Source of the DNA: an uncultured Pseudomonadales bacterium
Lineage (GTDB): Bacteria; Pseudomonadota; Gammaproteobacteria; Pseudomonadales; UBA7434
DNA: 64,000 nucleotides
Direction: 5' to 3'
Assembly (NCBI GenBank): GCA_943788835.1
Contig: CALSRU010000004.1
Location: forward strand, 490,300 to 554,299
Positions within the stretch are counted from its first letter, which is position 1; the number at the start of each line of letters is the position of its first letter. The notes below the pieces were generated by a model. It had not been told where the DNA came from. It saw only the letters and a program-made list of their open reading frames with translations, and ran no database searches. Positions 26,763 to 37,014 of this stretch are shown here, one piece after another. The position numbers and the translations under genes were made by a program.

Positions 26763-27047
26763 TTAAGAAATTTTGTCGAGCGCCTCAGGTGTGTTTTGCA
26801 CCATATCTTTGAAGGCCTGATTGTTAATGTGCTCAACTAAACACTCCTCACTAGCAACAATGGTTGCCGCGCGCTTATTACCGGTAAGAGCGGCGAGCGC
26901 CCCAAAATATTGACCGGAGGTAATTGTTCCAATTACATCACCAGCACGCAGCACTTTAGCTGAACCAGATAGTAGGCGACAAGCAAATTGGCTATCTTCT
27001 CCGTAACCAATAATTTGTTGGCCGCTGTTGTAAAGATGAGTGTTCAT
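26763..27047 (-). CDS. Solitary cyclic-nucleotide-binding-like domain protein
   Basis: A short protein of 94 residues that is almost entirely one CNB/cupin-like domain. The phosphate-binding-cassette region reads YFGALAALTGNKRAATIVA, resembling the CAP family pattern FGE...R.A.V.A. The ribose-contacting Glu is Ala here, while the Arg is kept. There is no HTH, kinase or channel part. Classical cAMP binding is therefore doubtful. Nine extra in-frame codons upstream (to 27074) are possible; I chose the internal ATG MNTHLYNSGQ. It faces a long AT-rich spacer and shares the acnB terminator. Confidence 0.75.
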   Translation of the reverse strand: MNTHLYNSGQQIIGYGEDSQFACRLLSGSAKVLRAGDVIGTITSGQYFGALAALTGNKRAATIVASEECLVEHINNQAFKDMVQNTPEALDKIS

Positions 27048-27074
27048 AGTTGAGCTCGTTGTAATGGGTGACAT

Positions 27075-27864
27075 TGAGTGCGCGACTAATCGTTAAGTAA
27101 TATCAGTCGCATTAGAAGGTAGTTCACCAGCCGAGCTTTGCCAGTTGCACCATGGCGAATCCGTTGGATTGAGGACTTTTTTACTCTTTTTTTAACTTTT
27201 TTCCGGGTTGAAAGATTTGAACGTCAGATTTTGGCGGGATCGCGCGATTTTCATAAACGCAAGGTGCTGAAATAATGGAGCCTTTCCAGCGGCGTCGGTC
27301 AGGCTGCAAAAAATCGTCAACGGGCCTTTAAAAGGCTTGACTTTTTATTCGTTTTCTCAGAGGTTAGTGAGCACTTTCCTTGTGGTCTTAAAACTTAATG
27401 GCGGAGAGGAATTTAAAACGTTATACACATTGCACTTTTTCAGCAATGTTGGCTAAAAAAAAAGCTTCATGCTATGAATTTTTAAGAAAGACCGCTAAGT
27501 CATTGATTTTAATATAATAACGTTGTTCAAAATACAACCTACTTAAGGCGAATGCCTTTAAACAAGGGCTAGGAGGCCTTCGGCAACGGGTTTTCCACAC
27601 AGTTACCCACAGATTCTGTGGATAGATTTTTTCACTCATTCTCTGTTTTAAATGTCAATACCTCAAAGCCATAAAATCTTATATTTCATCACCATAAATT
27701 GACCGATCTTGATCGCCGCCTTTCGGCAATTTGCGGTTTGATTTTGCTATGATGCGAGGGTCTTTTATGTCCAAGATAACCTCAGTATTAAAGGGCTAAC
27801 ACACAGCTATTTTGCTTTAGCTACTCATTCAACCCCAGTTAAGCGCACGGGAGCGCCATTAGTC
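27075..27864. other. AT-rich 0.8 kb spacer with a DnaA-box-like cluster
   Basis: No believable gene is seen here. The stretch is rich in A/T runs. It holds TTATACACA (27421-27429) and TTTTCCACA (27591-27599), both matching TTWTNCACA, plus near matches TTACCCACA (27603-27611) and, reversed, CTATCCACA (27617-27625). The last two form an almost perfect palindrome around 27607-27621. A TGC-TATGAT extended -10-like element lies at 27745-27753, upstream of the dUTPase gene. Two close GATC sites lie near 27704-27713. Confidence 0.55.
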
Positions 27865-28515
27865 ATGCAAAATACCCCAAGCCAAATATTACAAAAAGTT
27901 GAAACCATGTTGGCAATGCAAGACGGGATGAATACAAAGGTTCATCCCGACTGGATTACCCAGAACTTTGCCTGGTATCGTGCCGCCTGGGTTGAATGCG
28001 GAGAGCTAATGGATCACTTTGGCTACAAGTGGTGGAAGAAACAAAACCCCGATATTGAGCAAGTTCGGCTTGAGGTGATAGACATCTGGCACTTTGGCAT
28101 GAGCGCTTTGTTTACGGAAGGTGTGAGTCAGGCTGATTTGGCCGCGCATATTACCGACGCTATTGTGGCTCACCGGCCACTGGGGCAGGATGTGTTAAAG
28201 GCCACAGAGGCACTGGCGCAAGACTGCATCGCAACCAAAGGGTTTTCAGTGGCAGTCTTTTGGCATTTGCTCGACGCCGTTGATCTAGATATAGATAGCT
28301 TATTCAAATCTTATGTTGGTAAAAATGTGCTGAACTTTTTTAGGCAAGACCATGGCTACAAAGACGGAAGTTACCGTAAGGAGTGGCAGGGTCGCGAAGA
28401 TAACGAGCATCTGTCCGATATACTAGCCGGCTTAGACAGTGATAAAGCTAGCTTTCGCGATGCGGTTTATAATGAGCTGGCCGCGCGCTATGCCGCTACA
28501 GTGAGCGAGGCTTAG
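27865..28515 (+). CDS. Dimeric all-alpha dUTP diphosphatase
   Basis: This family (dUTPase_2, MazG-like NTP pyrophosphatase superfamily) hydrolyses dUTP to dUMP and keeps uracil out of DNA. The metal-binding acidic helices are visible: WVECGELMDHFGYKWWKK and LEVIDIWHFGMSAL, with E-x3-D and E-x2-D spacing. Later comes FRQDHGYKDGSYRKEW, also typical. At 216 residues it fits the dimeric class and is unrelated to the trimeric Dut. It lies 105 bases upstream of mrp/apbC, and dCTP deaminase (dcd) follows; together they suggest a dUTP/dUMP theme. Confidence 0.9.
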   Translation: MQNTPSQILQKVETMLAMQDGMNTKVHPDWITQNFAWYRAAWVECGELMDHFGYKWWKKQNPDIEQVRLEVIDIWHFGMSALFTEGVSQADLAAHITDAIVAHRPLGQDVLKATEALAQDCIATKGFSVAVFWHLLDAVDLDIDSLFKSYVGKNVLNFFRQDHGYKDGSYRKEWQGREDNEHLSDILAGLDSDKASFRDAVYNELAARYAATVSEA

Positions 28516-36285: not shown

Positions 36286-37014
36286 ATGCAAAAAGCCCCG
36301 CGCCAGTTTCCCTTACCTTTGAGGTTCGACCGCTCAGCGACATTTACCAATTATTGGGTAGGCGCTAATGAGCATATAGTCGGCCAGTTGAATTCACTGA
36401 TCACGCAAGTGCAGACGCGCTGGATCTACCTAGCGGGCGCTCCGAGCAGCGGGGTGAGTCACCTTTTACAAGCCACCATGGCGCAGGCTAGCGAATTGGG
36501 GCACAGCGCTATCTATATTAGCCTTAGCGAAATGCTTAGCTTAGCTGATGAGCGGCCTGAAATCACAGCGCTTGACTTGATGGAATCCATTGAGAACTAC
36601 GAGCTTATATGCATCGATAATATTGACGCATTAAGCGCTCGCGGTGACTGGCAGGAGGCACTCTTTTATTTACTAATTAAGCTACAAGGATTGCAAGTAT
36701 CGCGCATCGTGTTTGGCGCGCAAGAGTCAGCTTCGTTCATTGACATCGCCTTAGCCGACTTGCGTTCACGACTCGCCGGCGCAGAAGCTTTTAAGCTAAA
36801 GCCACATAGCGATGAAGATAAAGCCTTCATTGTGCAACACCATGCGCAACTCAGAGGTTGCGAAATTAATGATGAGTTGGCCAGTTTTATTGTGCAGCGT
36901 TATTCACGCGACTTACCTAGCTTAATAGCGGCTGTTGACCTGCTCGACCAAAACTCCATGAGCGAAAGTCGCAAGCTGACTATCCCGTTTGCTAAAAAGG
37001 TCTTGCTGCTGTAA
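36286..37014 (+). CDS. hda: Hda, DnaA-homologous replication regulator
   Basis: Hda with the DNA clamp promotes hydrolysis of DnaA-bound ATP and so prevents re-initiation. The N-terminus QKAPRQFPLPLRF holds the QxPLxLxF-type clamp-binding motif. The AAA+ core shows LAGAPSSGVSHLLQA (a P-loop lacking the Lys, as in Hda), ELICIDNIDALSARGDW, SRLAGAEAFKLKP and YSRDLPSLIAAVDLLD. At 242 residues it is the right length. It follows perM by 121 bases. Confidence 0.94.
   Translation: MQKAPRQFPLPLRFDRSATFTNYWVGANEHIVGQLNSLITQVQTRWIYLAGAPSSGVSHLLQATMAQASELGHSAIYISLSEMLSLADERPEITALDLMESIENYELICIDNIDALSARGDWQEALFYLLIKLQGLQVSRIVFGAQESASFIDIALADLRSRLAGAEAFKLKPHSDEDKAFIVQHHAQLRGCEINDELASFIVQRYSRDLPSLIAAVDLLDQNSMSESRKLTIPFAKKVLLL

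Follow-up and report, generated by a model that had tools for sequence, protein, structure and literature searches.

The locus analyzed here raises the question of what purpose a cluster of DnaA boxes serves in the spacer in front of a dUTPase gene. A first-pass annotation of the window, by which we mean the whole 64,000-nucleotide stretch of DNA analyzed, had described two matches to TTWTNCACA and two near matches in this spacer, and had suggested that DnaA either controls dUTPase or is titrated there. The matches were indeed found at 27421 and 27591 and the near matches at 27603 and 27617, and the latter two, on the plus and minus strands, respectively, together form the near-palindrome that had been described.

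Anatomy of the element

We took the interval 27421–27625 as the whole element because an IHF site and a fourth box (27421) lie before the three-box core. The element and its flanks comprise the following features:

27421–27625, plus strand: whole element (distal DnaA box, IHF site and DARS-type core), intergenic
27421–27429, plus strand: distal DnaA box TTATACACA, exact TTWTNCACA, 170 bp before box III
27496–27508, plus strand: perfect IHF consensus site TAAGTCATTGATT (reverse complement AATCAATGACTTA = WATCAANNNNTTR), 95 bp before box III
27525–27539, plus strand: Fis-like site GTTCAAAATACAACC, one mismatch to GNNYANNNNNTRNNC, a weak part of the element
27591–27599, plus strand: core box III TTTTCCACA, exact TTWTNCACA
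27603–27611, plus strand: core box II TTACCCACA, one mismatch to TTWTNCACA, 3 bp after box III
27617–27625, minus strand: core box I CTATCCACA, inverted, one mismatch, 5 bp after box II
26763–27074, minus strand: left flank, gene of a small cNMP-domain protein
27865–28515, plus strand: right flank, dUTPase (dUTPase_2) gene, starting 239 bp past the end of the element

On the plus strand, the core (27591–27625) reads TTTTCCACA-3 bp-TTACCCACA-5 bp-TGTGGATAG, that is, a tandem pair of DnaA boxes followed by an inverted one. Neither the IHF consensus site nor this DARS geometry had been recorded in the first-pass annotation. The number of boxes alone is ordinary, as exact TTWTNCACA occurs 4 times in the window against 5.7 expected; over the whole genome and both strands, it occurs 220 times, compared with 156 for the reversed pattern. 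The triple III-3-II-5-I fits in the window with 2 mismatches in total over all three boxes, while the best fit in 100 first-order Markov resamples of the window had 4 mismatches (2/100) and the rest had 5 to 8. Chance origin of the box arrangement was therefore ruled out, as no resample fitted the triple as well. TAANNNNTTGATW matched only twice in the 64-kb window, and one of these matches is the IHF site at 27496–27508.

The palindrome of boxes I and II was also considered as a terminator (27607–27621), a candidate that we set aside because a terminator needs neither DnaA-box letters nor the other parts of the element. Terminator-like sites numbered 3 in a 1.4-kb stretch (1.5 expected), and as single-stranded DNA the palindrome showed only modest folding (z of −1.7). 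Sigma70-like matches near the element did not exceed chance (2 versus 2.8 expected), and an Rfam scan returned three tRNAs and nothing else.

Conservation, chromosomal position and gene neighbors

The I/II palindrome was present in 23 of 38 genomes, comprising the window genome and its relatives, compared with 2 of 38 for the reversed control. Within the genus, the window genome and nine others carry it, each in exactly one place, and all 10 possess the box III-II-I core, the IHF site and the distal box; the comparison of the spacer among relatives that the first-pass annotation had proposed thus showed the boxes to be conserved. The perfect IHF consensus lies at −94 to −96 from box III in 10/10 members, against a shuffle expectation of 0.9 IHF sites across all ten stretches combined, and a TTATWCACA box lies farther upstream in all of them (at −170 in the window). 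Box II reads TTATCCACA in the nine other members versus TTACCCACA in the window. In the remaining two genomes of the genus (G006 and G011, 70–73% complete), neither dut nor the element was found.

At the level of the order, the pattern TTATCCACA-N(0..15)-TGTGGAWA matched 53 of 145 genomes (6 for the reversed control); the other 92 had no place that fitted this strict pattern, among them the window's own genome, whose box II is TTACCCACA. Although gaps of 0 to 15 bp were allowed, the I/II gap was exactly 5 bp in 68 of 74 distinct places, the others measuring 3, 3, 8, 8, 11 and 15 bp (distinct places were counted from the pattern listing over the 145 genomes, and a binomial was computed). The gap preferred in the order is that of the E. 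coli DARS. One locus (L041; G028:C17:22438–23173) has four palindromes in a row, approximately 215–265 bp apart, near a DUF559 protein, an array that differs from the few scattered copies usual elsewhere.

The wider spread was followed with R1, a sequence-only model of 45 columns made from 22 cores, including the window's own. The training cores were chosen by the I/II palindrome and oriented by their resemblance to box III; the conservation of boxes I and II in the training alignment (A2) therefore follows from its construction, and the conservation evidence independent of the choice of cores comes from box III, the gap spectrum and the IHF site. R1 scored the window element, a training sequence, at 43.7 bits, and the runner-up in the genome, near dnaA, at 19 bits. 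At E ≤ 1e-5, matches were obtained in 214 of 281 genomes of the class and none in the other 67, the best class matches listed reaching about 37–47 bits; a set of 299 genomes taken from the phylum, some of them outside the class, gave 124 with matches at the same threshold. Elsewhere in the class, genomes mostly hold one to three copies of the core, with differing gene neighbors and dnaA not adjacent. Genomes of family f211, from another class of the phylum, had up to nine core matches each.

A combination of DnaA boxes with an IHF site and AT-rich sequence would suit a replication origin, a reading that the first-pass annotation had already considered less likely. However, dnaA lies on a different contig (C1) with a box pair of its own, two TTATCCACA boxes 0.3–0.5 kb upstream of its reading frame, and dnaA, dnaN, mnmG, rnpA, yidC and mnmE were absent from 260 of 260 element loci searched by tblastn with flanks of 0.4–8 kb. 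The GC skew, a further check that had been proposed, was computed within the 64-kb window of a genome of 17 contigs; it is approximately +0.1 over most of the first 16 kb and near 0 beyond 32 kb, and no change of sign was observed at the element. Moreover, 56 R1 matches in 27 genomes were spread over 4% to 98% of the distance from dnaA to the terminus, with 9 in the first tenth (24 of these genomes consisted of one contig and 3 of two, and some lengths were rounded; G024 and G055, with dnaA on another contig, and matches above E of 1e-5 were excluded). The element has neither the position nor the neighbors of an origin, and we regard this explanation as hardly credible.

In the window genome, the dnaA region (L027:973–2680, G000:C1) comprises two overlapping frames of 390 and 190 amino acids, while in the other genomes listed dnaA is mostly one frame of about 440–540 amino acids; the split may be a true frameshift or an assembly error. 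The genome encodes IHF-alpha (above the curated cut-off), and an Hda-like gene of the DnaA family (PF00308, 22.8 bits) lies at window positions 36331–36774, at a distance of 9 kb from the element; the genome therefore offers partners known from the DnaA cycle of E. coli.

Gene neighbors were searched with 17 proteins by tblastn against the 260 loci, again with flanks of 0.4–8 kb. These loci were merged into 186 distinct core loci, 64 loci lacking a regular-expression core and other genus members being excluded. At least 2 kb of flanking sequence was available for 127 of the 186, and the neighbors of the remaining ones were mostly invisible because less than 2 kb was present. The commonest of the 17 was priA, which adjoins the element in 29 of 186 distinct core loci, followed by dut in 3 (one being the window), polA in 2, and thyA and uvrB in 1 each; bioD was found in 0/186 of these loci and mutH and rppH in 0/260 element loci. 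Loci with priA, the replication restart helicase gene, beside the element include L112, L117, L199, L200 and L231. In 80 of the at least 117 loci of a scan of named genomes (see below), the flanking genes stood in all four orientations (++ in 22, −+ in 18, −− in 12 and +− in 10), while 8 loci were one-sided and 10 had the core inside a called open reading frame. Neighboring proteins for Pfam were chosen by hand, partly by size, and bioC was rejected as a neighbor in L237, where Pfam indicated a methyltransferase only and NCBIfam gave no support.

These data bear on the proposal that the element is a DnaA-controlled promoter site for dut (or dut-mrp-dcd), at which DnaA-ATP would tune dUTPase over the cell cycle. 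The proposal draws on the 239 bp that separate the element from the dut start in the window, on the presence of dut in the fetched flank of all 10 genus genomes with the palindrome, on the recurrence of the DNA-metabolism genes priA, dut, polA, thyA and uvrB as neighbors, and on the binding of E. coli DnaA upstream of nucleotide genes (excerpt of PMC11317965). However, the site does not keep its place before the same gene. Its vicinity to dut is kept within the genus only, at a distance that varies from about 205 to 1300 bp; dut is about 440–1300 bp off in part of the genus, and in G008 a short-chain dehydrogenase (SDR) gene stands between the element and dut. Outside the other genus members, dut accompanies just the 3 of 186 distinct core loci mentioned above, and in most other families examined no comparable cluster was found upstream of dut. 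Excerpts of the literature joining dUTPase and the DnaA box yielded nothing on such control. The variety of neighbors, the spread along the chromosome and the lack of origin genes make both an origin and a dut operator unlikely, and control of dUTPase as the purpose of the site, improbable on these grounds, is not upheld. The dUTPase neighborhood is incidental, and a side effect on dut transcription may occur.

IHF sites and distal boxes outside the genus

To place the IHF site relative to the core, we collected 110 cores from outside the genus and used the 106 with full 300-bp flanks. They came from loci found by the palindrome or by R1, with the best-scoring class matches preferred (19 new loci and 60 stretches), and had also to pass a regular expression requiring parts of the boxes; owing to this selection, the set is neither a random nor a phylogenetically independent sample. 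With up to one mismatch, TAANNNNTTGATW occurred on the core strand at 58 sites in the −100 to −91 bin and at 0–5 sites in the other bins; on the opposite strand there was 1 site in this bin and a maximum of 8 in any bin. A near-consensus IHF site lay between −130 and −80 on the core strand in 67 of 106 cores and was absent there from 39; the corresponding numbers with a site were 13 for the opposite strand and 2 for the mirror window. The exact sequence YAANNNNTTGATW was found 31 times on the core strand of the 106 cores, where about 2 were expected, and 8 times on the other; 27 of the 31 lay in the interval from −125 to −97, including 20 at positions −97 to −99. The rarer positions at about −108 and −118, together with −87 in E. 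coli DARS2, look like steps of one helical turn, the sites concerned being few.

The scan of named genomes, in which 77–105 bp were allowed from TTGATT to the core, gave at least 117 loci with at least 125 matches. Among the 125 matches listed, the gap was 89–91 bp in 94 and 87–92 bp in 113, and the bases before TTGATT, left unconstrained by the pattern, were TAA or CAA in 101. Judging by the titles of 80 loci, where a group or genus was given, these are presumably gamma- and betaproteobacteria, two titles naming the phylum only; the taxa, as we understand the titles, include Stenotrophomonas, Burkholderia, Lysobacter, Methylobacter, Stutzerimonas and Pasteurellaceae.

Distal boxes and Fis sites were examined in 107 cores, that is, the 106 from outside the genus and the window's own, a set that drew on 80 of the at least 117 named-scan loci. 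Exact TTWTNCACA peaked on the core strand in the −180 bin, with 60 occurrences versus 0 on the other strand, and the exact Fis consensus peaked in the −70 bin with 57. This Fis peak lies between the IHF site and the core, whereas in the E. coli DARS2 model, as excerpted, FBS2-3 lie beyond the IHF sites. The box-IHF-box distances are 75 and 95 bp in the window and mostly about 77–81 and 97–99 bp elsewhere.

The fixed geometry also bears on the suggestion that the site does no more than titrate DnaA through high-affinity binding. The presence of several near-consensus boxes away from oriC would suit this role, and titration has been proposed for E. coli (excerpt of PMC12371093), but it needs neither a fixed 5-bp gap nor an IHF site at a fixed distance and on a fixed strand. 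We therefore consider that simple titration carries very little probability. The first-pass comparison with datA held insofar as this is a DnaA-box site outside the origin, while plain titration explains neither the I/II gap nor the IHF distance.

Comparison with DARS1, DARS2 and datA of E. coli

In E. coli (NC_000913), DARS1 reads TAATACACA-3-TTATCCACA-5-AGTGGATAA and DARS2 reads TTCTTCACA-3-CTATCCACA-5-GGTGAATAA, the box III/II pairs agreeing with an excerpted table in PMC11317965. Both share a three-box core with opposed boxes I and II, on which DnaA meets head to head and loses ADP (excerpt of PMC8682772); the IHF and Fis consensus sequences used here were taken from excerpts of PMC4585315 and PMC8682772. 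The window core likewise has three boxes, with I and II opposed at the E. coli spacings, and the element lies outside oriC in a noncoding region.

DARS1, in the bioD-uvrB intergenic region, has the same three boxes, strands and 3- and 5-bp gaps as the window core. It differs in having no consensus IHF site but an IHF-like site with two mismatches at −99, and its sole distal box-like sequence is TTATCCCCA at −197; according to an excerpted review (PMC5742627), DARS1 works in vitro without other factors. In Pasteurellaceae bacterium Pebbles2 (L241:2138–4452), a core with an IHF site at −100 and a distal box at −179 lies upstream of uvrB, and in this one genome the element reads away from uvrB, in the same orientation as E. 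coli DARS1.

DARS2, at rppH-mutH, shares the core layout; an IHF-like sequence lies on the side of box III and on the same strand, with more DnaA boxes beyond. The IHF site of the window element, at −95, lies 8 bp farther away than the IHF-like sequence of DARS2 at −87, and DARS2 carries its exact distal boxes at −185 and −280 of the other strand. A check for the Fis layout of the DARS2 type, in which DnaA boxes overlap FBS2-3 beyond the IHF site, found the Fis-like site with one mismatch between the IHF site and the core in the window. The gene order of the window differs from the rppH-mutH location, and the DARS2 core, IHF and Fis sites have been tied to E. coli relatives (excerpt of PMC4245941).

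datA has a box-IHF-box arrangement on one strand, with 77 bp from its first tandem box (TTGTAAACA) to the start of the IHF site and 97 bp from there to the next box, near the 75 and 95 bp of the window; counted from the second tandem box, the first distance is 65 bp. The IHF spacing of the window element fits datA better than DARS2. However, the tandem pair of datA is not followed by an inverted box at 5 bp, and a DARS core is hence lacking. In short, the window element resembles datA in its scaffold spacing and DARS in its core.

R1 was run on nine E. coli loci totaling 86 kb (DARS1, DARS2, oriC, datA, nrdA, polA, purH, nrdD and dnaA). Its best match was the DARS1 core (positions 7–41, 22.3 bits). 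At E ≤ 1, R1 gave no match to the DARS2 core, so layout alone links R1 cores to DARS2, another stretch of which scored 13.7 bits over positions 6–42; datA gave a partial match (positions 7–30, 16.7 bits), and the other matches were partial or on the reverse strand.

Taken on sequence, the window element is likely a DARS-type replication-control element on an IHF scaffold and probably acts as a replication-timing switch rather than as a control site of the adjoining gene. Several observations weigh against this reading: R1 missed the DARS2 core and scored DARS1 far below the best class matches, 67 of 281 class genomes lack an R1 match and 39 of 106 cores a near-consensus IHF site, the uvrB synteny comes from one genome, and the IHF-like sites of E. 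coli have two mismatches (−99) or lie at −87. By analogy with E. coli, we infer binding of DnaA and IHF and exchange of ADP for ATP at the element. ADP-DnaA would bind boxes III, II and I, and DnaA on the opposed boxes I and II would meet head to head, with loss of ADP. The released apo-DnaA would take up ATP, so that ATP-DnaA would rise ahead of the following round of initiation at oriC. By bending the DNA, IHF bound approximately 95 bp away would allow the distal DnaA box, perhaps together with Fis, to reach the core and would thereby gate the reaction within the cell cycle.

A datA-type element, in which the IHF bend would join DnaA on the distal box to DnaA on the core and ATP-DnaA would be hydrolyzed and so inactivated, is suggested by the nearly equal box-IHF-box distances, all on one strand; it is nevertheless a rather doubtful alternative. 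Reactivation is favored over hydrolysis because the most constrained feature here, box I inverted at 5 bp, is missing from datA, and the R1 match to datA is partial. Hydrolysis, or both activities, may take place at the element. More speculatively, and with a low likelihood, the element could represent an ancestral DnaA switch of the class, a single IHF-scaffolded module combining a DARS core with a datA-like box-IHF-box arrangement. Such a module would reload or hydrolyze DnaA depending on IHF and nucleotide state, and DARS1, with its IHF site lost, DARS2 and datA would be its specialized descendants or rearrangements.

Elements of this general kind have been described before. A V. cholerae RctB site has been likened to DARS (excerpt of PMC3937223), and a 2023 review, as excerpted (PMC10380432, citing its reference 91), describes conservation of DARS1- and DARS2-like sequences across many species of proteobacteria. 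As DARS-like sequences in proteobacteria are already published, the kind of element is known. Reference 91 of the review is, we presume, the 2009 DARS paper. In the excerpts of literature compared, that 2009 paper aside, we found no description of a fixed class-wide IHF distance, a datA-like scaffold, a distal box or a recurrent priA location; what appears new relative to these excerpts is the layout in which a DARS core is combined with an IHF scaffold of datA-like spacing, including its occurrence upstream of uvrB in one Pasteurellaceae genome.

The DnaA cycle of RIDA, datA and DARS was worked out in E. coli in the excerpted literature considered, and a module of fixed geometry in most of the sampled genomes of the class would make the DARS system testable in many bacteria. 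The comparison further suggests that gating by IHF is the usual situation, to which the IHF-free DARS1 is the exception, and the box-IHF-box distances in common raise the question of a shared origin of DARS and datA.
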